Below, piece by piece: positions 7,602 to 61,487 of a stretch of 64,000 nucleotides of DNA. Position numbers and translations under genes: made by a program. Source of the DNA: Cytobacillus gottheilii (GTDB taxonomy: Bacteria > Bacillota > Bacilli > Bacillales > Cytobacillaceae); NCBI RefSeq assembly GCF_001636345.1, contig NZ_KV440945.1:2271631-2335630 (forward strand). Reading direction: 5' to 3'. The first letter of the stretch is position 1, and every line of letters begins with the position of its first letter. The notes under the pieces are model-generated. The model saw only the letters and a list, made by a program, of their open reading frames with translations. It made no database searches and had not been told where the DNA came from.

Positions 7602-8282
7602 TTGAAGAAAAAATGGATTTATACTTTAGTAGCGGCTTTGTTCTTTTCTGCTGCAGGAGCTTTTTATTATGAAGGCAGACCAGATGATGCTTCTGCAAAC
7701 GAAGAGCAAGTAAATGAGGAGATTAAAAGTGACAGTCAGGATGCTGTAACTGAAACTGAAGAGGAAGAAACTGAATCTAATAATGAGTTAAATAGGGAAG
7801 ATCCTAGTGAAACAGAAGAACCAGTAAAAGAAGAAGTTGATCATCAATCTGAAACCGAGCCAGCTAATGATGAAAAGCAAGAAGGAAAGACGGAAGACAA
7901 AAATGAGGATCCTGAGACAATTGTATCTCCAGAAGGGGATACCTATCATTTAATTGAAGATAAAACAAAATATAGTAATCTTGCAGATTTAATCGATGCT
8001 GCTGCAAACATTGATGCATCCTTGTATGGTATTAAAAATTCTGATGTATTTACACTGATTAAGAATGGCGAGCCAATCGGTGGGTTTTCAACCGGCAGTT
8101 TGTCTATTGATCCGGAGTATAAAAGCTTTGCCATTCAAAAACACAGTTTTTATAAGGACAAAGGGTTGGAAGATAATATTAATCTAGCTATTCGTACAGG
8201 TGCCAGCATTACTGTTAACTTTGATGAATATACAGGTTATCATATTGAATATAAAAACGGCAGACTAATTATTAATCATTAA
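7602..8282 (+). CDS. secreted or membrane-anchored protein with acidic linker
   Basis: I do not recognise the family. Residues 1-20 (LKKKWIYTLVAALFFSAAGAF) are a signal peptide or anchor. Residues about 30-105 are a very acidic Glu/Thr/Ser/Asn linker. The C-terminal ~115 residues form a globular domain (TYHLIEDKTKYSNLADLI, NGEPIGGFSTGSLSIDPEY, GYHIEYKNGRLIINH). The TTG at 7602 is chosen because AAAGGAG lies eight bases upstream; the GTG at 7593 overlaps that site. It stands alone between two terminators. Secretion is well supported by sequence, function is not. Confidence 0.65.
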   Translation: MKKKWIYTLVAALFFSAAGAFYYEGRPDDASANEEQVNEEIKSDSQDAVTETEEEETESNNELNREDPSETEEPVKEEVDHQSETEPANDEKQEGKTEDKNEDPETIVSPEGDTYHLIEDKTKYSNLADLIDAAANIDASLYGIKNSDVFTLIKNGEPIGGFSTGSLSIDPEYKSFAIQKHSFYKDKGLEDNINLAIRTGASITVNFDEYTGYHIEYKNGRLIINH

Positions 8283-8348
8283 TTATGTTGTTGTTTTCTG
8301 TACAATGGACAGTAAATGAAATATACACTAATCACTCATACATGTATG

Positions 8349-8382
8349 AAAAAAGCATTCCTGATCAAGAGGAATGCTTTTT
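8349..8382. terminator. bidirectional terminator
   Basis: AAAAAGCATTCCT and AGGAATGCTTTTT form a 13-bp stem with A and T runs on both sides. It lies between the convergent acidic-protein gene and pflA. Confidence 0.9.
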
Positions 8383-8386
8383 CGTA

Positions 8387-9115
8387 TTATTGTGATGTTA
8401 ATAGCTGATAAGCCCACTCAGCTACTTCTTCGCTTGGTGGTTCAATATCCTTTAAAGGGTAGTCTAATCCAAGAGCTTCCCATTTATAAACACCAAGTTT
8501 ATGATAAGGCAATACTTCTACCTTTTTAACGTTATTTAAAGTGCTAATAAAGCGGCCTAAATTGAGCAAATCTTCTTCAGAATCTGATATTGTTGGAACA
8601 AGTACATGCCGAACCCAAACAGGGATCTGTTGCTCTGATAAAAATTTGGCAAATGACAAAATATGCTCGTTTGTTAATCCAGTTAATTTCTTATGTTTGT
8701 CTTTATCAATATGCTTAAGATCAAGCAATATTAAATCTGTGTATTTCAGTACTTCTTTTAATTGATTCTGGAAATGAGGGGAGGTGGAATAGCATCCTCC
8801 TGAAGAGTCAATAGTAGTATGGATACCAAGCTTCTTGCATTCCTTGAATAATTCGATTAAAAAGGGCAGCTGCAATAAAGGTTCTCCACCGCTGACTGTA
8901 ATACCTCCGCCTGATGATTCAATGAAAGGAAGGTATGTCTTTAAATCAGCAATGATTTCGGAAACAGACATTTGTTTACCTGTGCCAATCTCCCAAGTAT
9001 CTGCGTTATGACAGAATTGGCAGCGCAGAAGGCACCCCTGCGTAAAAATGACATATCGAATGCCTGGTCCATCAACTGTTCCAAAGGTTTCAATAGAATG
9101 TATATTTCCGTTCAT
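8387..9115 (-). CDS. pflA: pyruvate formate-lyase activating enzyme
   Basis: A radical-SAM enzyme that installs the glycyl radical on PflB under anaerobic conditions. The [4Fe-4S] cluster Cys are C28, C32 and C35 (GCLLRCQFC), and the SAM-binding region is GGGITVSGGEPLLQ. Length is 242 aa, as usual. I place the start at ATG 9115, which has AAAGGAAG seven bases upstream; the frame continues to 9139. In this family pflA normally follows pflB closely; here about 600 bases of hairpin repeats separate them. It may depend on readthrough from the pflB promoter. Confidence 0.95.
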   Translation of the reverse strand: MNGNIHSIETFGTVDGPGIRYVIFTQGCLLRCQFCHNADTWEIGTGKQMSVSEIIADLKTYLPFIESSGGGITVSGGEPLLQLPFLIELFKECKKLGIHTTIDSSGGCYSTSPHFQNQLKEVLKYTDLILLDLKHIDKDKHKKLTGLTNEHILSFAKFLSEQQIPVWVRHVLVPTISDSEEDLLNLGRFISTLNNVKKVEVLPYHKLGVYKWEALGLDYPLKDIEPPSEEVAEWAYQLLTSQ

Positions 9116-51249: not shown

Positions 51250-51273
51250 AAACACATGAAAGGAAATGAATTC

Positions 51274-52302
51274 ATGACAAAACAGCTGCTCACTAGCTTA
51301 AAAAAAGAAATGGCGCCATTTGAAAAGGCCAATAGAAACGCAAGCATTAGACAATTAATTAACACTTTAGTTCCTTTTTTTGCATTATGGTATGCAGCCT
51401 ATTTAAGTTTAGAGGTATCATACCTTCTAACTTTGGCTCTATCTGTCATTGCATCAGGATTTTTAGTCCGGATTTTCATTATCTTTCATGATTGCTGTCA
51501 CAATTCGTTTTTTAAAAGCAGAAAAGCCAATAAAATTATCGGTACCATTGCCGGTATTATAACGCTATTCCCGTTTACCCAATGGCAGCGTGATCACTCT
51601 ATCCACCATGCGACAAGCAGCAACCTTGATAAGCGCGGAACCGGAGACATATGGGTTTTAACGGTTCAAGAATATATAGACGCACCGTTCTGGACAAAGG
51701 TAGGGTACAGGCTTTATCGTAATCCATTCATTATGTTTGGATTAGGACCTATTTATCAATTTTTAATTATCAATCGCTTTAACCGTAAGGATGCAAAATG
51801 GAAAGAGCGACTTAACACATATATAACGAATATTTCAATAGCAGCTCTATATAGCGGATTGTGCTGGTTAATCGGCTGGGAAGCTTTTCTGCTGGTTCAG
51901 CTGCCAATCTTTCTTCTCTCAGGATCTGCAGGGATCTGGCTGTTCTACATTCAGCATACATTTGAACAATCATACTTTGAAGTAGATTCAGAGTGGGAGT
52001 ATGTTAAGGCGGCGGTTGAAGGAAGTTCTTATTACAAACTTCCCAAAATACTGCAATGGCTGACTGGAAACATTGGTTTCCACCATGTGCATCATTTGAG
52101 TCCAAGAGTGCCCAATTACCTTTTAGAAGAGGCGCATAATGAATCTGAGGCACTGCAGCATGCTCCAACCATTACGATGGCCAAAAGTCTGGAATCTCTA
52201 CGCTTTAAACTATGGGACGAAGAAAATAAAAACTTTGTTGGCTATAAAGCAGTGAAAAAATATATTCAAAAGAGCAATACAGTTGTAACAGATAAGGCAT
52301 AA
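51274..52302 (+). CDS. des: membrane fatty-acid desaturase
   Basis: Adds a double bond to acyl chains of membrane lipids, restoring fluidity after cooling. It is 342 aa with hydrophobic segments and three His boxes: HDCCH (72-76), HSIHH (108-112) and HHVHH (270-274), which hold the di-iron centre. ATG 51274 has AAAGGA nine bases upstream; ATG 51256 leaves almost no leader after the promoter. It is followed by desK and desR, the thermosensor pair that controls it, with an intervening hairpin that could limit readthrough. Confidence 0.94.
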   Translation: MTKQLLTSLKKEMAPFEKANRNASIRQLINTLVPFFALWYAAYLSLEVSYLLTLALSVIASGFLVRIFIIFHDCCHNSFFKSRKANKIIGTIAGIITLFPFTQWQRDHSIHHATSSNLDKRGTGDIWVLTVQEYIDAPFWTKVGYRLYRNPFIMFGLGPIYQFLIINRFNRKDAKWKERLNTYITNISIAALYSGLCWLIGWEAFLLVQLPIFLLSGSAGIWLFYIQHTFEQSYFEVDSEWEYVKAAVEGSSYYKLPKILQWLTGNIGFHHVHHLSPRVPNYLLEEAHNESEALQHAPTITMAKSLESLRFKLWDEENKNFVGYKAVKKYIQKSNTVVTDKA

Positions 52303-52309
52303 AAGTAAA

Positions 52310-52343
52310 AACTCCTTTGTTTTTTGCAAAGGAGTTCTATTTT
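52310..52343 (+). terminator. terminator between des and desK
   Basis: AACTCCTTTG pairs perfectly with CAAAGGAGTT, followed by CTATTTTAT. It would separate strong des transcription from low desKR expression, with partial readthrough. Confidence 0.85.
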
Positions 52344-52456
52344 ATCCATTGAAGCAGTGCAGCAGCTGCATCATGTTTAATTGTTAAAGCTTCTCCATTT
52401 TTCAATTCTCTTGCAGAAATCAAAGACAGACATTATCAGTAAATTTGAGGGATATT

Positions 52457-53596
52457 ATGGCGAAAAAGTATATTGCATTTTTAAAAAATCCAGGAATCTC
52501 TCCATACATTTGGATTCTATTAAGCATTCTTCCTTTTTATTTTATTTTCCAATCTTCGTCAACATATGAAATTGCAGTGGGAATTTTATTAACGATTACT
52601 TTTTTTATTGTGTATCGATTTGCCTTTATTTCTGACCGATGGCCGGTGTATTTATGGTCCTCAATTTTAATTGCGATCTCAATGACCATGGCAATTTTAT
52701 TTCATTATATTTATTTTGCTATTTTTATTGCCAGCTATAATGGAAATATAAAGAACAAGGTTGCATTTTATACAATTTATGTTGCACATCTGGTTGTGAC
52801 AACAGCTGCTATAAATTTTAATATTGTGATTGGTGAACAGCTCTTTTTAACTCAGCTTCCATTTATCATCATCATATGGATAAGTGTCATTTTGCTTCCG
52901 TTCACGATTTCTAATAAGCATAAACAAGAAAAGCTTGAACGGGAGCTTGCGTATGCGAATAAAAGAATTTCAGATTTGGTCAAGCAGGAAGAACGGCAGC
53001 GCATTGCCCGAGATCTCCATGATACTCTAGGACAGAAACTATCTCTCATTGGATTAAAGAGCGATCTGGCACGCAGACTGATTTATAAAAATCCTGAGCA
53101 GGCCCGTGAAGAGCTTAAGGATGTGCAGCAGACAGCAAGAACAGCATTAAATGAAGTGCGGAAAATGGTTTCGCAAATGCGAGGCATCAGGTTAAAAGAA
53201 GAGCTGGTAAGCGTTAAACAATTATTAAAAGCGGCTGAGATTGAATACATTGGAAGCGACGCGCTTAAGGTCGTCAATGTTTCACTGTTTATTGAAAATA
53301 TACTAAGCATGTGTTTAAAAGAAGCGGTGACGAATGTAGTCAAGCACAGCAAAGCTAGTTATTGTAAGATTAAGATTATACAAACCGAAAAAGAAATAAA
53401 AATTATCGTCGAAGACAATGGGGTTGGTTTTGATCCAACTGAACATGAAACAAAAGGCAATGGACTGATTGGCATGAAAGAAAGACTTGATTTTGTAAAT
53501 GGTACGCTTGACATCCACTCCAATGCTGGCACAACCGTGACCATGAGTGTACCAACCGTTTTACGGGCAGTTGAACAGGAGGGAAAAGAAATATGA
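52457..53596 (+). CDS. desK: membrane thermosensor histidine kinase DesK
   Basis: Sensor of membrane thickness and fluidity. Residues 15-150 hold about five membrane segments; the polar residues Lys10 and Asn11 just before the first helix correspond to the sunken-buoy region important for sensing in B. subtilis DesK. The kinase is of the HisKA_3 type with phospho-acceptor His188 in ARDLHDTLGQ, the same position as in B. subtilis. ATPase motifs are ALNEVRK, VTNVVKHSKA and VEDNGVGFD. GAGGGA lies before ATG 52457. Its end overlaps desR by four bases. Confidence 0.93.
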   Translation: MAKKYIAFLKNPGISPYIWILLSILPFYFIFQSSSTYEIAVGILLTITFFIVYRFAFISDRWPVYLWSSILIAISMTMAILFHYIYFAIFIASYNGNIKNKVAFYTIYVAHLVVTTAAINFNIVIGEQLFLTQLPFIIIIWISVILLPFTISNKHKQEKLERELAYANKRISDLVKQEERQRIARDLHDTLGQKLSLIGLKSDLARRLIYKNPEQAREELKDVQQTARTALNEVRKMVSQMRGIRLKEELVSVKQLLKAAEIEYIGSDALKVVNVSLFIENILSMCLKEAVTNVVKHSKASYCKIKIIQTEKEIKIIVEDNGVGFDPTEHETKGNGLIGMKERLDFVNGTLDIHSNAGTTVTMSVPTVLRAVEQEGKEI

Positions 53597-54192
53597 TTAC
53601 CATAGTCATTGCAGAAGACCAGCGTATGATGCTCGGTGCGCTAGGATCACTGTTAAGTTTAGAGGAAGATATGGAAGTGGTCGGCAAGGCAAACAATGGT
53701 GCTGAAGCAGTCTCCCTCGTTCATAAACTGAAACCGGATGTGTGCATCATGGATATTGAAATGCCTGAAAAAAATGGATTAGAAGCGGCAGAGGAAATTA
53801 GAGACTTAGATTGTAAGGTCATCATTTTAACGACCTTTGCACGCACTGGTTATTTTCAGAGGGCGGTAAAAGCTGGTGTCGGCGGCTATTTATTAAAAGA
53901 TAGTCCAAGCGAAGAACTGGCAGACTCAATCCGCAGCGTTATGGCCGGCAAACGTTTGTATGCTCCAGAATTAATGGAAGATCTTTATAGTGAGGAAAAT
54001 CCCCTGACAGATCGGGAAAAAGATGTGCTTGAGCTGATTGCAGAAGGAAAAAACACAAAAGAGATTGCCAGCAATCTGAACATTAAAACCGGCACAGTCA
54101 GAAATTATATTTCAGCCATTATGGAAAAATTAGAAGTGACCAACCGCATTGAGGCAATCACGCAATCAAAGAAAAAAGGCTGGTTTAAATAA
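53593..54192 (+). CDS. desR: response regulator DesR
   Basis: NarL-family regulator of 199 aa. The receiver domain has Asp54 in CIMDIEMPEKNG as phosphorylation site, with the acidic pair EDQR near the start. The LuxR-type helix-turn-helix is LTDREKDVLELIAEGKNTKEIASNL with SAIMEKLEVTNR. In the cold, DesK phosphorylates it and it activates des. The ATGA overlap with desK shows translational coupling. Confidence 0.94.
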   Translation: MITIVIAEDQRMMLGALGSLLSLEEDMEVVGKANNGAEAVSLVHKLKPDVCIMDIEMPEKNGLEAAEEIRDLDCKVIILTTFARTGYFQRAVKAGVGGYLLKDSPSEELADSIRSVMAGKRLYAPELMEDLYSEENPLTDREKDVLELIAEGKNTKEIASNLNIKTGTVRNYISAIMEKLEVTNRIEAITQSKKKGWFK

Positions 54193-54220
54193 GTTTATAA
54201 AGTATTTAACATGACAATAG

Positions 54221-54265
54221 AACTGACTGGTTAGGATATGAATCTTCTAATCAGTCGGTTTTTTT
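54221..54265 (+). terminator. terminator after desR
   Basis: AACTGACTGGTTAG and CTAATCAGTCGGTT form a long stem with one side loop, followed by T residues. Confidence 0.9.
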
Positions 54266-54414
54266 GTTCCGATGCTATTGGCTGATTTATAGAGCAGGAA
54301 ATAGGAACAGCAATTTTTTTAATGGGTCTAGATACTTAACCACTAATTGCGCCTCAAATCCTATCACCCTTTGTAAAACTCTAATTTAATCAAAAAAATT
54401 AACTAAATACGCTG

Positions 54415-54443
54415 TTGACTTTTGTGAAAAGTAGGTTCATAAT
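54415..54443 (+). promoter_or_regulatory. ilvE promoter with CodY-like box
   Basis: TTGACT and CATAAT are spaced by 17 bases. Between them, ACTTTTGTGAAAAGT (54418-54432) matches the CodY consensus AATTTTCWGAAAATT at 12 of 15 positions and is itself palindromic. CodY is the branched-chain-amino-acid-sensing repressor, so a site inside the promoter of a branched-chain aminotransferase is expected. Confidence 0.6.
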
Positions 54444-54545
54444 ATTTTAAAAAATCAATATGCTTTATTTATTAAATGCTTTTATGCGTTAAAGTGAATT
54501 TGTTGTAAGAAAACAATTATTCCAAAACAGGGAGACTGAGTGCTG

Positions 54546-55652
54546 ATGAATGATTATGATCAAATCAAGGTTCATTTAACATCGAATAGTAAAGAGAAAC
54601 CACCATTTGATAAGCTGCAATTTGGAAGGAATTTTACAGACCACATGTTTGTAATGGATTATAAGGAAGGTCTTGGCTGGCATGATGCCCGAATTATTCC
54701 TTATCAGCCGCTGCAGCTCGATCCATCAGCAATGGTTTTCCATTATGGCCAAAGTGTTTTTGAAGGTTTAAAATCTTATTTGAGTACAGATGGAGACGTG
54801 CTGCTGTTTAGACCGTCAGATAATATGAAGAGGCTGAATCGTTCTAATAACAGGCTCTGTATTCCTCAGATCGATGAAGAATTTGCAGTGGAAGCCCTAA
54901 AAAGATTAATACAGATTGATCATGAATGGGTGCCAAATGGTGAGGGAACTTCATTGTATATTCGCCCGTTCATCATTTCAACAGAACCTTTCCTTGGAGT
55001 TGCTCCTTCGAAAGCATATCAATTTTATATCATTATGTCTCCGGTAGGCGCTTATTATAAGGAAGGAATCAATCCAGTTAAAATTGCAGTACAAAGTGAG
55101 TTTGTTCGTGCTGTAAAAGGTGGAACAGGTAATGCGAAAACAGGCGGGAATTATGCTGCAAGCCTTAAAGCGCAAGAATCAGCAGAAGGATTAGGCTATT
55201 CACAAGTTCTTTGGCTTGATGGCAATGAGCATAAATATATTGAAGAAGTAGGAAGCATGAACATTTTCTTTAAGATAGACGGTGAGATTGTAACCCCTGA
55301 ATTAAACGGAAGCATTTTAGAAGGAATCACCAGAAATTCAGTTATCCAGCTTATTAAGCATTGGAATTTGCCGCTGACGGAAAGAAAAGTATCTATTGAT
55401 GAGATCTTTGAAGCCCATAAGCAAGGCAAACTGGAAGAGGCATTCGGGACAGGGACTGCAGCAGTTATTTCACCAATCGGCGAATTTTTCTGGCAGGACG
55501 AAAAGATTGTGATCAATGATCATAAAACCGGAAAAATCGCCAAGCAACTATATGAAACTTTAACAGGTATTCAAAAAGGGACCGTCCCTGATCCATTTGG
55601 ATGGACTACACCAGCATATAACTCTTCTAAAAAAGCAACAGCCGTAAACTAA
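54546..55652 (+). CDS. ilvE: branched-chain amino acid aminotransferase
   Basis: PLP-dependent class IV aminotransferase (368 aa) that interconverts leucine, isoleucine and valine with their keto acids. The PLP lysine is Lys198 in GTGNAKTGGNYAASL. Other family blocks: FHYGQSVFEGLKSY, RPFIISTEPFLGVAPS, YIEEVGSMNIFF and EAFGTGTAAVISPIG. GGGAGA lies ten bases before ATG 54546; GTG 54540 is possible. Similar to the YbgE/YwaA enzymes of B. subtilis. Single-gene unit with a CodY-like box and a terminator provided by MITE copy C. Confidence 0.94.
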   Translation: MNDYDQIKVHLTSNSKEKPPFDKLQFGRNFTDHMFVMDYKEGLGWHDARIIPYQPLQLDPSAMVFHYGQSVFEGLKSYLSTDGDVLLFRPSDNMKRLNRSNNRLCIPQIDEEFAVEALKRLIQIDHEWVPNGEGTSLYIRPFIISTEPFLGVAPSKAYQFYIIMSPVGAYYKEGINPVKIAVQSEFVRAVKGGTGNAKTGGNYAASLKAQESAEGLGYSQVLWLDGNEHKYIEEVGSMNIFFKIDGEIVTPELNGSILEGITRNSVIQLIKHWNLPLTERKVSIDEIFEAHKQGKLEEAFGTGTAAVISPIGEFFWQDEKIVINDHKTGKIAKQLYETLTGIQKGTVPDPFGWTTPAYNSSKKATAVN

Positions 55653-56272: not shown

Positions 56273-56346
56273 GCAATTTCAGCTGAGAAAAGGTAAAGAC
56301 ATGGCAGCGAAACACCATTAGTAGCTTCAAACGTAGGAGGATAACC

Positions 56347-57951
56347 ATGAAAGACATCTCACTCATTTATAAGGTAGCTGCAGAGGCAGATGAATACAAA
56401 CAAATATATGAGTTGAATTACCAGACATTTGTTGAAGAAATACCGCAGCACCAAGAAAATACAGAGAAAAGATTAATTGATAAATTTGATGAAGAAAATA
56501 CATATATTATCGCAAAAGACGGAGCTGAAGTGGTAGGGATGATTGCTGTTCGTGCAAAACGGCCGTTTTCGCTCGATCATAAGCTTCCAGATATTGATTC
56601 ATATTTGCCAAAAGAAGCAAGACCCTGTGAAATCAGACTGCTTTCAGTAAAAGAAAAATACCGAAGCACATTCGTATTTTTTCAGCTTTGTGAATTGCTG
56701 GTGAGTTATTGCTTAGAAAATCATTATAATCTTGCTCTTATTTCAGGTACTCTTAGACAAACAAAGCTCTATAAACGGATCGGTTTTACTAGTTTTGGTC
56801 CGGAAGTTGGGGAGGCAGATGCACGTTTTCAGCCGATGTATCTGACGAAGGAGCGTTTTGAAGAGAATACATTGGCATTTAAAGAGCTTATGAAAAAGAA
56901 AAACCCTGAACCATATACATTTCTGCCTGGACCAGTCCCAATGGATGAGGAAGTTACCGCCCATTTGAATAGAATTCCGCTGTCACACCGAGATCGTGAA
57001 TTTATGGACGCCATTCATCGTGTGAGCAGAACAATGTGCCAACTAACGAATGCTAATCATGCTGAGATTGTAGTGGGAACAGGTACACTTGCTAATGATA
57101 TTGTTGCAGCTCAGCTAAGTAGGATGCCTGGCACAGGATTGATATTGGCAAATGGAGAATTTGGCTATCGTTTGATCGAACATGCAAGCAGGATGGGGCT
57201 GACTTTTGAAACCATTAAAAAAGAATGGAATGTGAATATTGATCTTAGTGAAATCGAAGAAAAGGTAAAAGCGAACAGTGAAATCAGTTGGGTATGGACC
57301 GTTCATTGTGAAACATCTACAGGATATTTATATGATATAAATGCTATTCAGGAATTGTGCAAAAAGGTTGGAACAGAGCTATGTGTTGATAGCTGCAGCA
57401 GTGTTGGAACCATTCCAGTAAACTTGAAGGACATATATCTTGCTACTGCTGTAAGTGGGAAGGGATTAGGATCATATCCAGGAATAGGTATTATTTTACA
57501 TAGAGAAAACATTCGGCCGGATGCGTCCATTCCCCGTTATTTAGATTTAGGATTGTATGCAATGTCTGATGTGCCATTTACACATTCTTCTAACTTGTTA
57601 TTTGCACTTGAAACAGCCTTACATCATCATACAGGCTATGAAAATACGGTACTTGGAAATGAGATAAAAGGTAAATTGATACAATCGGGTCTGCCAGTGC
57701 TGGGAGATGAGGAATATTCGCCACATGTAATCACCATAGAGATGCCCGCGGGGATCTCTTCACAGGAATTCGGAGATCGTCTGAAAAAGAAAATGATATT
57801 GATAAGTTATGAGAGTAAATATTTACTTGATAGAAATTGGGTTCAGGTAGCTATAATGGGTAAACATAATCGTACTTATGCGTTAAGAGCAATAAAAACA
57901 TTAATCCAGGAATATTTCTTTATCACTTCAGTAAGGCATGAGATCGGATGA
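56347..57951 (+). CDS. fusion of GNAT/FeeM-like acyltransferase and class V aminotransferase
   Basis: A 534-aa two-domain protein. Residues 1-180 are a GNAT-type fold; YQTFVEEIPQHQENTEKRLIDKFDEEN and ARPCEIRLLSVKEKYR recall the LuxI/FeeM branch that moves acyl groups onto amino compounds. Residues 190-534 are a fold-type-I PLP enzyme of the alanine-glyoxylate / 2-aminoethylphosphonate class: LPGPVPMDEEV, HCETSTGYLYDI, CVDSCSSVGTIPV and the PLP Lys372 in SGKGLGSYPG. Both halves look intact. AGGAGGATAACC lies before the ATG. The stop overlaps the start of an LtaS-like gene by four bases, so the two are translationally coupled. Substrates are unknown; the link to envelope lipid or teichoic-acid chemistry is inference from that coupling. 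Confidence 0.8.
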   Translation: MKDISLIYKVAAEADEYKQIYELNYQTFVEEIPQHQENTEKRLIDKFDEENTYIIAKDGAEVVGMIAVRAKRPFSLDHKLPDIDSYLPKEARPCEIRLLSVKEKYRSTFVFFQLCELLVSYCLENHYNLALISGTLRQTKLYKRIGFTSFGPEVGEADARFQPMYLTKERFEENTLAFKELMKKKNPEPYTFLPGPVPMDEEVTAHLNRIPLSHRDREFMDAIHRVSRTMCQLTNANHAEIVVGTGTLANDIVAAQLSRMPGTGLILANGEFGYRLIEHASRMGLTFETIKKEWNVNIDLSEIEEKVKANSEISWVWTVHCETSTGYLYDINAIQELCKKVGTELCVDSCSSVGTIPVNLKDIYLATAVSGKGLGSYPGIGIILHRENIRPDASIPRYLDLGLYAMSDVPFTHSSNLLFALETALHHHTGYENTVLGNEIKGKLIQSGLPVLGDEEYSPHVITIEMPAGISSQEFGDRLKKKMILISYESKYLLDRNWVQVAIMGKHNRTYALRAIKTLIQEYFFITSVRHEIG

Positions 57952-59801
57952 AAATAAAAGAGAAGTTACGTTTAACGGTTAATCCTCAGAAGTTAGTACT
58001 CTTTGCTCTTATCGTTTTATGGCTGAAAACGGTGATTGTTTCACTGATTGGTTTTAACTTTCATATTCAATCAGCGGCAGATATTCTATTAATTTTATTG
58101 AACCCAATCGGATCCTTAGTTTTAATATTGTCAGTTTGTCTCCTTTTTAGAAAGAGATTTAATAAGGCGATATTTATTGCCATTAATATCATTATAACGG
58201 GGCTATTATATGGTGATTTGCTGTATTACCGATTTTATACTGATTTTGTAACAGTCCCTATTCTATTTCAGTTTAAAAATGTAGGCGGCCTCGGACCAAG
58301 TACACTTGAACTAATGAGTTTTTGGGATCTCCTTTTATTTGCTGATCTGGCTGTCATCATTCTTTTGGCGATTAAAATGAAGAATACCGATTCCATTCAA
58401 TGGCCCTTTATAAAGAAGTTTGTAGTTGCAGGAACTGTATTGTTTGTTGTTACTGCGGGATTGGCTCTGTTAAAATCACCGTATCTTTTTTCAACAGCAT
58501 ATGACAGGGAACAGATGGTAAAATCAATCGGCCCTTATAATTATCATCTATTTGATATATCGTATGCTGCTTTTTCACCATTAAAAAAAGTACTTGCAAC
58601 TGAAACAGATACAATCGCGGCAGTAAATTATACAGATGCAAAAGAAGATGAAGAAACAAGTGTGCAAGGAATAGCCGAGGGAAAGAATGTTGTATTAATT
58701 AGCATGGAATCTACACAGAATTTTGTTATTAATCAACAAGTAAATGGCGAAGAAATCACTCCCTTTCTGAATGAACTAATAAACGAAAGTTACTATTTCA
58801 ATTCAATCTATGACCAAACGGCACAAGGCAAAACATCTGATTCTGAGTTCATGGTTGATACATCCTTATATCCATTATCAAGCGGTTCTGTCTTTGTAAG
58901 AAAACCATCAAATGTATTTAATGCACTGCCTAAAATCTTAAAAGACAATGGAGGGTATTACAGTGCCGTCCTGCATGGAAATGATGCTGATTTTTGGAAC
59001 CGCGAAAATATGTATAATGAACTCGGATATGATCGCTTTTTCTCTAAAGTGGATTATGAAGTAAATGAAGAGAATTCAGTTAATTATGGCTTGAAGGATA
59101 TCCCTTTCTTTGAACAAAGTGCAGAATATATTTCTGAACTGCCTCAGCCGTTTTATACAAGACTAATCACATTAACTAATCATTTTCCATTTTTGCTTGA
59201 TGAAGAAGATCAATTAATATCTGAAGCAGCAACTTCTCAAGATGTTGTTAACCGCTATGTGACAACGGTGCGCTATCAGGATGAAGCGATCAGAAGGCTT
59301 TTCGATCAGTTCAAAGAATTAGGGTTATATGAGGATACAGTATTTGTCTTATATGGCGATCATTACGGGATATCTGAAAAATATGAAGATGGCGTATTAG
59401 AATTGCTTGATCTCGAGCCATCACCCGTCCACCATGTTGAACTGCAAAAAGTGCCGGTCATTATCCATGTGCCAGGCCAAGCAGGTAAGGTGTTTTCAAA
59501 TATTGGCGGGGAGATCGATATCCGTCCGACTCTGCTATCGCTATTAGGTATTACGGATGTTGACACACCTTCATTCGGCCAGAATTTAATGACGCGTGAT
59601 CATGATCAGCCTGTCATTTTCCGTGACGGATCTTATGTGTCTGATCAGCATATTTATATCAATAATGTCTGCTATGATAAAAAAAGTGGTGAAGAAGCTG
59701 AAGAAGGTGCCTGTAATTCTAATTTAGAAAAGGTAAGAGATGAGCTAAATATGTCAGATGAAATTTTAAATGGAGATTTATTGAGGTTTTTAGATTTATA
59801 A
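57948..59801 (+). CDS. LtaS-type phosphoglycerol transferase (sulfatase fold)
   Basis: A 617-aa membrane protein with five N-terminal membrane segments (about residues 15-175) and an extracellular sulfatase-fold domain. Metal and catalytic residues match LtaS of S. aureus almost by position: Glu254 (ISMESTQNF), Thr296 (QGKTSDSEF), and Asp471-His472 (YGDHYGI). LtaS enzymes polymerise glycerol phosphate from phosphatidylglycerol into lipoteichoic acid; bacilli have several paralogues. The ATGA overlap with the aminotransferase fusion suggests this paralogue serves a special polymer or modification rather than the main LTA. A Cys pair in NVCYDKKSGEEAEEGACNS is extracellular. Confidence 0.88.
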   Translation: MKIKEKLRLTVNPQKLVLFALIVLWLKTVIVSLIGFNFHIQSAADILLILLNPIGSLVLILSVCLLFRKRFNKAIFIAINIIITGLLYGDLLYYRFYTDFVTVPILFQFKNVGGLGPSTLELMSFWDLLLFADLAVIILLAIKMKNTDSIQWPFIKKFVVAGTVLFVVTAGLALLKSPYLFSTAYDREQMVKSIGPYNYHLFDISYAAFSPLKKVLATETDTIAAVNYTDAKEDEETSVQGIAEGKNVVLISMESTQNFVINQQVNGEEITPFLNELINESYYFNSIYDQTAQGKTSDSEFMVDTSLYPLSSGSVFVRKPSNVFNALPKILKDNGGYYSAVLHGNDADFWNRENMYNELGYDRFFSKVDYEVNEENSVNYGLKDIPFFEQSAEYISELPQPFYTRLITLTNHFPFLLDEEDQLISEAATSQDVVNRYVTTVRYQDEAIRRLFDQFKELGLYEDTVFVLYGDHYGISEKYEDGVLELLDLEPSPVHHVELQKVPVIIHVPGQAGKVFSNIGGEIDIRPTLLSLLGITDVDTPSFGQNLMTRDHDQPVIFRDGSYVSDQHIYINNVCYDKKSGEEAEEGACNSNLEKVRDELNMSDEILNGDLLRFLDL

Positions 59802-59803
59802 AT

Positions 59804-59839
59804 AAAAAGGAGGATCGTTTTTGAACGATTCTCCTTTTT
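59804..59839. terminator. bidirectional terminator between the LtaS-like gene and aroK
   Basis: AAAAAGGAGGATCGTT pairs with AACGATTCTCCTTTTT with one mismatch around a short loop, A and T runs on both sides. Confidence 0.92.
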
Positions 59840-59851
59840 ATTTTCAGCCGT

Positions 59852-60572: not shown

Positions 60573-61487
60573 GTGAAAATTTTAGCTATTGATGGCGGCG
60601 GAATACGGGGTATTTTGGCGGTCACCGTCTTAAAAAATATTGAAAAACAATATAAATGTAAGATTGCTGATCTCTTTGATGTCTTTGCTGGAACCAGTAC
60701 AGGTGCCATTATTGCAGCTGCTGCATCTGTAGGTAAAGAAATGGAAGATGTTTATGATATTTATCTACAGCATGGTGAAAAGATCTTTGAAAGACATGCT
60801 ACAGTTGGTTTATTTAAAAGCATTTATACAAACCATCATTTACGACAATATTTACAAGATGCCTACGGAGAGACATTGCTATGTGAAGTGGAAAAGCCAT
60901 TGCTTTTACCAGCGGTCGATATTCATAAAGGAAAGCCGTATGTTCATCGCTCACATGTACGCAATCCTGGAGAGAAAAAGGAAGAGATTAAACTGTGGGA
61001 TGCCGTGCTTTCATCCTGTTCTGCACCGGTTTATTTTCCCCCTAATGAAATGCAAAATAAACTTTTAGCCATTGATGGCGGCTTATGGGCAAATAATCCA
61101 ACATTGGTTACAATCACAGAGGCACTCAGTTTTTTTCATCAAAAACTTGAAGATATCCATGTTTTATCGATTGGGACTGGACTGCAATCTATTCCTTTTC
61201 AGGAAGAGGAAGGCAGAGAATGGGGTGCTCAAAGCTGGCTGCCTTTTCAATTTCCCTCTTTTAGGATGACACCAAAACTTCTTGATCTTGCGCTTCATAT
61301 TTCTTCAGAAGCCATCTCATATCATTGCCGGCATTTGCTGCATGACCAATATTTACGTCTGAATGCCGAGCTGGAAAAAGAAATGCCATTTGATGATGTG
61401 ACATTTTCACATGAACTGGCTCTTATGGGAGAAAAGCTATATGAGGAGCAAAAAAAGGATATTGAGGAATTTCTAAAAAAGACATAA
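60573..61487 (+). CDS. patatin-like phospholipase
   Basis: A 304-aa soluble acyl hydrolase of the patatin fold. The oxyanion loop is DGGGIRG (7-13), the nucleophile Ser42 lies in GTSTG, and the catalytic Asp168 in AIDGGLW. It probably hydrolyses phospholipid or another acyl ester. GTG 60573 follows AGGTGA by four bases. Related proteins act as membrane-degrading effectors in CBASS defence, but here no cyclase or accessory gene adjoins it, and the neighbours (aroK, thiamine genes) are housekeeping, so a lipid-metabolism role is more likely. Confidence 0.88.
   Translation: MKILAIDGGGIRGILAVTVLKNIEKQYKCKIADLFDVFAGTSTGAIIAAAASVGKEMEDVYDIYLQHGEKIFERHATVGLFKSIYTNHHLRQYLQDAYGETLLCEVEKPLLLPAVDIHKGKPYVHRSHVRNPGEKKEEIKLWDAVLSSCSAPVYFPPNEMQNKLLAIDGGLWANNPTLVTITEALSFFHQKLEDIHVLSIGTGLQSIPFQEEEGREWGAQSWLPFQFPSFRMTPKLLDLALHISSEAISYHCRHLLHDQYLRLNAELEKEMPFDDVTFSHELALMGEKLYEEQKKDIEEFLKKT

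Follow-up and report, generated by a model that had tools for sequence, protein, structure and literature searches.

A 64,000-nucleotide stretch of the main contig of the Cytobacillus gottheilii genome (4.59 Mb), positions 2271631–2335630 and hereafter the window, carries two overlapping genes that, together with a gene of the PlsY acyltransferase family, would make an undescribed two-chain membrane lipid with one fatty chain linked through an amide, a reading that, judged from sequence comparison, is about evenly poised between right and wrong. The first gene (56347..57951, forward strand, as are the domains and expression signals given below) encodes a 534-residue fusion of a FeeM/LuxI-like acyltransferase with a class V aminotransferase, and the second (57948..59801) encodes a 617-residue sulfatase-family protein of the LtaS type. 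Both open reading frames (ORFs) are intact, as an earlier sequence-only reading of the window had stated, and they share a stop/start ATGA at 57948..57951, a probable sign of translational coupling. Joining an aminotransferase to an N-acyltransferase would let the latter acylate the amine formed by the former, and the PlsY-type partner points to a second chain and so to a membrane lipid rather than a soluble compound. No account of the operon or of the fusion was found among the titles and abstract openings listed by a literature search in one open library.

The partnership was counted around 145 fusion loci, i.e., 61 from the family draw, the best 80 named loci of a collection scan with 577 relatives (a selection biased to close relatives of the window) and four others, of which 126 were distinct after 19 duplicates had been dropped. 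A gene was counted as beside the fusion when it lay on the same strand with a gap of −200 to 600 nt. By this definition, a PlsY-family gene lies directly upstream of the fusion at 110 of the 126 loci, with a gap of 80 nt or less at 106, and an LtaS gene lies directly downstream at 74. Both partners are found at 64 loci, PlsY alone at 46, LtaS alone at 10 (including the window) and neither at six. Divided by source, PlsY and LtaS adjoin the fusion at 54 and 26 of 63 loci in the family draw, and at 56 and 48 of the remaining 63. These counts supersede a wider one (PlsY within four genes at 123/145 loci, LtaS at 90/145), in which duplicates were retained and spurious N-terminal extensions masked PlsY in L167–L170 and L173. 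The genes flanking the fusion vary from genus to genus, and the commonest other same-strand neighbour family occurs at only 13 loci. The recurrent second enzyme is of the PlsY type in this survey, in which PlsC was not specifically searched for near the fusions. The fusion is not universal, because only 3 of 398 genomes of a phylum draw, the source genome being one of them, carry it at E 1e-40. Thirteen loci of Rossellomorea and Bacillus, L112 among them, carry a gene for a membrane-like protein of about 250 residues, presumably YwaF/TIGR02206-like, on the far side of PlsY3 (the divergent PlsY defined below), two genes upstream of the fusion.

The pair of PlsY and fusion also occurs without LtaS on metagenome contigs of 57–60% GC, namely one with the label Limisphaera (L186) and two with the label Verrucomicrobia that probably share a lineage (L188 and L190); therefore, the core product could well be something other than a teichoic acid. 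Because PlsY adjoins the fusion at 110 of the 126 loci vs. 74 for LtaS, and because the surroundings differ between genera, PlsY looks like the deeper partner and LtaS like a later or regional addition.

The LtaS-type protein matches the Pfam Sulfatase model at 144.2 bits (cut-off 25) and the NCBIfam lipoteichoic acid synthase model at 656.5 bits, under the equivalog cut-off of 970, and its best solved matches are lipoteichoic acid synthases (2w8d, E 1.8e-107). The sequence-only reading had recognised an LtaS paralogue with Glu254, Thr296, Asp471 and His472, and these residues indeed align to conserved motifs of the LtaS chains 2w8d and 2w5q, which are taken to be the B. subtilis and S. aureus enzymes, at positions that presumably form the LtaS active site. 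The source genome encodes four further LtaS-type proteins that match over most of the length at 40–44% identity. A quick tree was made from 36 of the 73 linked rows (every second one and the window's) and 23 rows that genome searches had supplied. In it, the fusion-linked LtaS, the window's among them, form one group with a Shimodaira–Hasegawa-like approximate likelihood ratio (SH-aLRT) support of 99, to which the remaining LtaS paralogues of eight genomes do not belong; the rows L236–L238, marked as "other" inside this group, are second entries for the linked genes of G104, G105 and G025. In three genomes that carry the fusion without a linked LtaS (G072, G122 and G123), the best LtaS is 41–46% identical to the window's, whereas three linked LtaS retrieved by the same search show 59% identity. 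Based on these identities, the operon-type LtaS is found only together with the operon among the genomes examined.

The partnership with LtaS put forward in the sequence-only reading is thus specific, as the clade of operon LtaS attests, but LtaS as the defining partner is not supported, since it is not adjacent at 52 of the 126 loci and does not always accompany the fusion; the PlsY-family partner, upstream at 110, was out of reach of that reading because the window contains none. The same reading had proposed that the fusion makes an acylated or aminated head group, which the LtaS paralogue transfers to the envelope. The LtaS directly downstream at 74 loci, the separate clade and the ATGA coupling in the window are in keeping with this proposal. 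However, the 52 loci where adjacent LtaS is missing, the fusion genomes G072, G122 and G123 with no LtaS above 46% identity to the window's (against 59% for linked ones), and the lipoteichoic acid synthases that the operon LtaS matches best among solved structures all argue against it. With PlsY, a relative of chain-adding enzymes, as the commoner partner, a head group as the product is not supported, and the proposal is considered quite unlikely.

The name PlsY3 is given here to the divergent PlsY that group with the fusion-linked ones. A tree was built from 109 fusion-linked PlsY and every PlsY of nine genomes, seven of which (including the source genome) were picked for the lack of a PlsY adjoining the fusion. 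Each of the nine genomes has two canonical PlsY and one PlsY3; the 18 canonical rows lie on one side of a branch (100/100, length 2.01) and the PlsY3 rows on the other, and the unlinked PlsY3 of the source genome groups with the fusion-linked PlsY. The two canonical PlsY of the source genome both pass TIGR00023, whereas its PlsY3 stays under the equivalog cut-offs (TIGR00023, 105.4 vs. 137.2 bits; NF001254, 138.9 vs. 199 bits), as does the linked PlsY3 of L038 (92.3 vs. 137.2 bits and 74.2 vs. 199 bits), which matches PF02660 at 114.2 bits. A profile made from 16 PlsY3, used instead of copy number because many fusion-less genomes also show three PlsY by eye, splits the two kinds in 151 family genomes, with at least 152 bits for the one and at most 131 bits for the other among the matches listed. 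PlsY3 is present in every one of the 63 family genomes that have a full-length fusion vs. 28 of the 88 others, a descriptive comparison of related genomes. The dependence looks one-way: genomes with the fusion carry PlsY3, and the converse is not required. In G021 (L255, about 7977–8893), fragments of PlsY3 and of the GNAT half of the fusion lie side by side, the remainder of both was not found there, and the fragments are regarded as a relic. At L105 (G535), the PlsY adjoining the fusion is split into two ORFs, and in the relative G496 (L106) it is a single ORF.

The residues of PlsY3 were compared with those of the Aquifex enzyme, in which, according to an excerpt of the published study, a phosphate clamp of Ser35, Arg45, Lys104 and Asn180 holds glycerol-3-phosphate, whose 2-OH is touched by Ser142 and His177, Thr41 and His92 bind acyl-phosphate, and the N180D exchange causes a loss of more than 95% of the activity (PMC5700162). 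Positions were transferred by sequence motifs, the Aquifex chain being aligned over the first two and His177/Asn180 being located via the HxxN pattern; the position of Ser142 in PlsY3 is not placeable with certainty. All seven remaining residues are kept in the 18 canonical rows. In the 118 PlsY3 rows, in which two genes are present twice, Ser35, His92 and His177 are kept in 118, Arg45 in 117 and Lys104 in 116, whereas Thr41 is kept in just 41 and Asn180 in just 40, with eight gaps. Asn180 is retained in 5 of 64 PlsY3 with an operon LtaS vs. 32 of 45 without, a contrast that can be due in part to shared descent. The acceptor is probably phosphate-bearing, because most of the phosphate clamp is kept; from these residues, we infer that PlsY3 still acylates such an acceptor, perhaps one other than glycerol-3-phosphate.

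The N-terminal domain of the fusion (residues 1–185, 56347..56901), assigned from Pfam, AlphaFold and Foldseek, matches the Pfam models FeeM PF21926 at 42.5 bits (cut-off 27) and Acetyltransf_5 PF13444 at 32.2 bits (cut-off 22.4). In alignment A1, FeeM (at E 1e-3) and Aminotran_5 are matched by 23 of 23 fusions and PF13444 by 22 of 23 at E 1e-3. The AlphaFold model of the whole fusion has a mean predicted local distance difference test (pLDDT) score of 89 and a predicted template modelling (pTM) score of 0.69, and the GNAT domain folded separately reaches a pLDDT of 91; the Foldseek matches fit the family readings of both halves. Among the 50 listed matches of the GNAT domain, the query-normalised TM-scores are 0.76 for BjaI, 0.74 for MesI, 0.71 for LasI, 0.70 for FeeM (2g0b) and 0.65 for 5jph. 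The sequence-only reading, which had called this domain FeeM/LuxI-like from motifs, was therefore right for the family.

Two other explanations turn on this domain. The fusion could be an ordinary acetyltransferase–aminotransferase of central amine metabolism, placed with lipid genes by chance or by shared regulation, and it is true that generic GNAT models also pass their cut-offs in the fusion protein and that the best Foldseek E-value belongs to a coenzyme A (CoA)-bound acetyltransferase, 5jph. However, FeeM is the strongest Pfam GNAT-type match and is found in every fusion of the alignment, and the top TM-scores among the 50 matches listed go to acyl-homoserine lactone (AHL) synthases and FeeM (0.70–0.76 vs. 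0.65 for 5jph), which makes this explanation improbable. Alternatively, the resemblance in fold to AHL synthases and FeeM may point to a diffusible N-acyl amine signal, or else a small natural product, as the output of the fusion, with PlsY3 and LtaS as mere neighbours. This is very doubtful in view of the linkage to PlsY3 across differing flanks, the co-occurrence in 63 of 63 genomes and the restriction of the commonest other neighbour family to 13 loci, although a receptor or exporter may be among these other neighbours.

The remainder of the fusion (56902..57951), assigned from Pfam, solved structures and alignment, comprises a linker and the class V pyridoxal phosphate-dependent aminotransferase domain, which matches Aminotran_5 PF00266 at 52.3 bits (cut-off 21.5). 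The best Foldseek matches of the whole-fusion model are the 2-aminoethylphosphonate (AEP) transaminase 7e7g and the alanine-glyoxylate aminotransferase 1vjo, in agreement with the type named in the sequence-only reading. Conservation was read from 228 different fusion sequences, obtained by pooling the 126 loci with the 120 best database matches and collapsing identical entries. Lys372, which occupies the catalytic position, is present in every sequence; at position 500, 226 have Gln, one has His and one has a gap. A profile alignment places position 500 opposite an Arg in 7e7g and 2dr1, which presumably binds the acid group of the substrate in AGXT and PhnW. Because Gln500 replaces this Arg, the substrate is probably other than the usual ones of the homologues. 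A phosphonate head group was also considered and is unlikely, the best match to phosphoenolpyruvate (PEP) mutase in the source genome reaching 143.8 bits against a cut-off of 319.55.

The proposed lipid pathway, in which the order of steps, the substrates and the products are all read from sequence, fold and neighbourhood, would begin with amine formation by the aminotransferase domain, from a small ketone or from an acylated ketone that PlsY3 supplies. The FeeM-like domain would then transfer an acyl chain from acyl-acyl carrier protein (acyl-ACP) or acyl-CoA to this amine, and PlsY3 would esterify a hydroxyl of the phosphate-bearing acceptor with a chain taken from acyl-phosphate, giving an N,O-diacyl lipid. 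Where present, the operon LtaS may draw on this lipid to anchor or accept glycerol phosphate. Serinol phosphate is formed from dihydroxyacetone phosphate by the transaminases RtxA (PMC3222319) and Cj1437 (PMC11800397), for neither of which class V is stated in the excerpts of these papers. By analogy, N,O-diacyl serinol phosphate would be a chemically reasonable product. In its boldest form, the proposal would be a new phospholipid class, in which dihydroxyacetone phosphate (or its acyl form) is converted to serinol phosphate, N-acylated by the FeeM domain and O-acylated by PlsY3, and the product, an amide-linked mirror of phosphatidic acid, serves in many Bacillaceae as a private anchor for their own LtaS; this specific version is unlikely. 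If true, such a serinol-phosphate lipid would mean that glycerol metabolism has yielded a ceramide-like solution and would account for some of the "unidentified aminophospholipids" of Bacillaceae. Should the broader proposal hold, an undescribed membrane lipid would be made in many Bacillaceae and in some distant bacteria by an enzyme set unlike OlsBA, and the operon would give genetic access to the unidentified amino(phospho)lipids of species descriptions. In addition, the separate roles of multiple LtaS paralogues become testable, one paralogue being tied to a specific putative lipid operon.

Several observations weigh against a two-chain lipid as the product. No PlsY is linked to the fusion in the window, the PlsY3 of the same genome lying 83 kb upstream of the fusion, and five fusion loci (L091–L095) have neither partner adjoining; the sixth partnerless locus, L140, ends at a contig edge. 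The PlsY3 of the source genome has Asp at the Asn180 position and, because N180D cripples the Aquifex enzyme, may be weak or use another acceptor. Being both Asp180 and unlinked, it leaves activity in the source strain less certain than for the operon generally. Lys104 is lost in the unlinked PlsY3 of G104. The PlsY tree has several long branches and does not establish PlsY3 as a single lineage; the PlsY of L106, which adjoins a fusion, branches off as the sister of the canonical clade (95/72), possibly as a long-branch artefact. In 28 of the 151 family genomes, PlsY3 occurs although no full-length fusion was detected; in one of them (G073), the fusion is cut by a contig edge. Among the 14 of these 28 that were inspected by eye (L216–L229, from genomes such as G003, G028, G144 and G132), some seem to have lost the fusion from apparently the same locus; therefore, PlsY3 has a use without the fusion. 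For the acyl chain, the 5jph match has the best E-value, and BjaI, which has the top TM-score among the matches listed, was solved with isovaleryl-CoA, a short donor, so that the fold comparison makes a short acyl donor possible for the GNAT domain. Finally, the Arg-to-Gln change means that the homologues are no guide to the substrates of the aminotransferase.

In the window, a probable ribosome-binding site of the fusion gene, AGGAGG, was read at 56335..56340, 5′ of the first ATG. A 20-pair hairpin with a U-rich 3′ arm (59800..59843; −23.7 kcal/mol, z −7.85) starts at the ltaS stop codon and is a probable terminator; it is not among the results of a consensus terminator scan. The closest named homologue of the fusion is from Cytobacillus gottheilii (81% identity). 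Upstream of the operon, genes for a fatty-acid desaturase, a DesK-type histidine kinase, a LuxR-type response regulator and a class IV aminotransferase (51256–55652) are viewed as a membrane-fluidity system near the putative lipid operon, and a patatin-like phospholipase gene (60573–61487) is the second gene 3′ of the LtaS paralogue.

Compared with known systems, the fusion shares with PhnW/AEP transaminase and alanine-glyoxylate aminotransferase the fold, the Lys372 position and the class V profile. Unlike PhnW, it falls under the cut-off of the PhnW/AEP transaminase equivalog TIGR03301 (137.8 vs. 360.8 bits) and has Gln500 for Arg, in a genome with no PEP mutase over the cut-off. The Pfam FeeM match and a similar fold are shared with the FeeM N-acyl amino acid synthase and the AHL synthases, but the aminotransferase is fused only in the operon protein. 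The PntC-AEPT and M. penetrans MetRS fusions (6pd1, 9os7) likewise join a class V aminotransferase to an N-terminal partner domain, which, according to an excerpt of the source, is a nucleotidyltransferase or has that fold rather than being GNAT; on this ground, kinship with the 9os7 fusion was rejected (PMC13215547).

The operon LtaS has the motif residues and catalytic-domain similarity of LtaS, yet it differs from the equivalog in scoring under the cut-off and in belonging to a separate fusion-linked clade. Similarly, PlsY3 shares the family match and most of the phosphate-clamp residues with PlsY but lies outside the canonical clade, with the two tested under the equivalog cut-offs and Thr41 and Asn180 often changed. 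The nearest precedent is OlsB/OlsA, which makes ornithine, glutamine and glycine lipids. According to a review of aminolipids, PF13444 is common to aminolipid N-acyltransferases and the second step is typically performed by a PlsC-like enzyme (PMC11631085); "Bacill" has no occurrences in that review. Like OlsB/OlsA as described there, the operon combines an N-acyltransferase of the PF13444/FeeM superfamily with a second acyltransferase. Unlike OlsB/OlsA, its recurrent partner is PlsY-type rather than PlsC-like, and its N-acyltransferase is fused to an aminotransferase; if the proposed route holds, the operon would be an aminolipid pathway of a new design.

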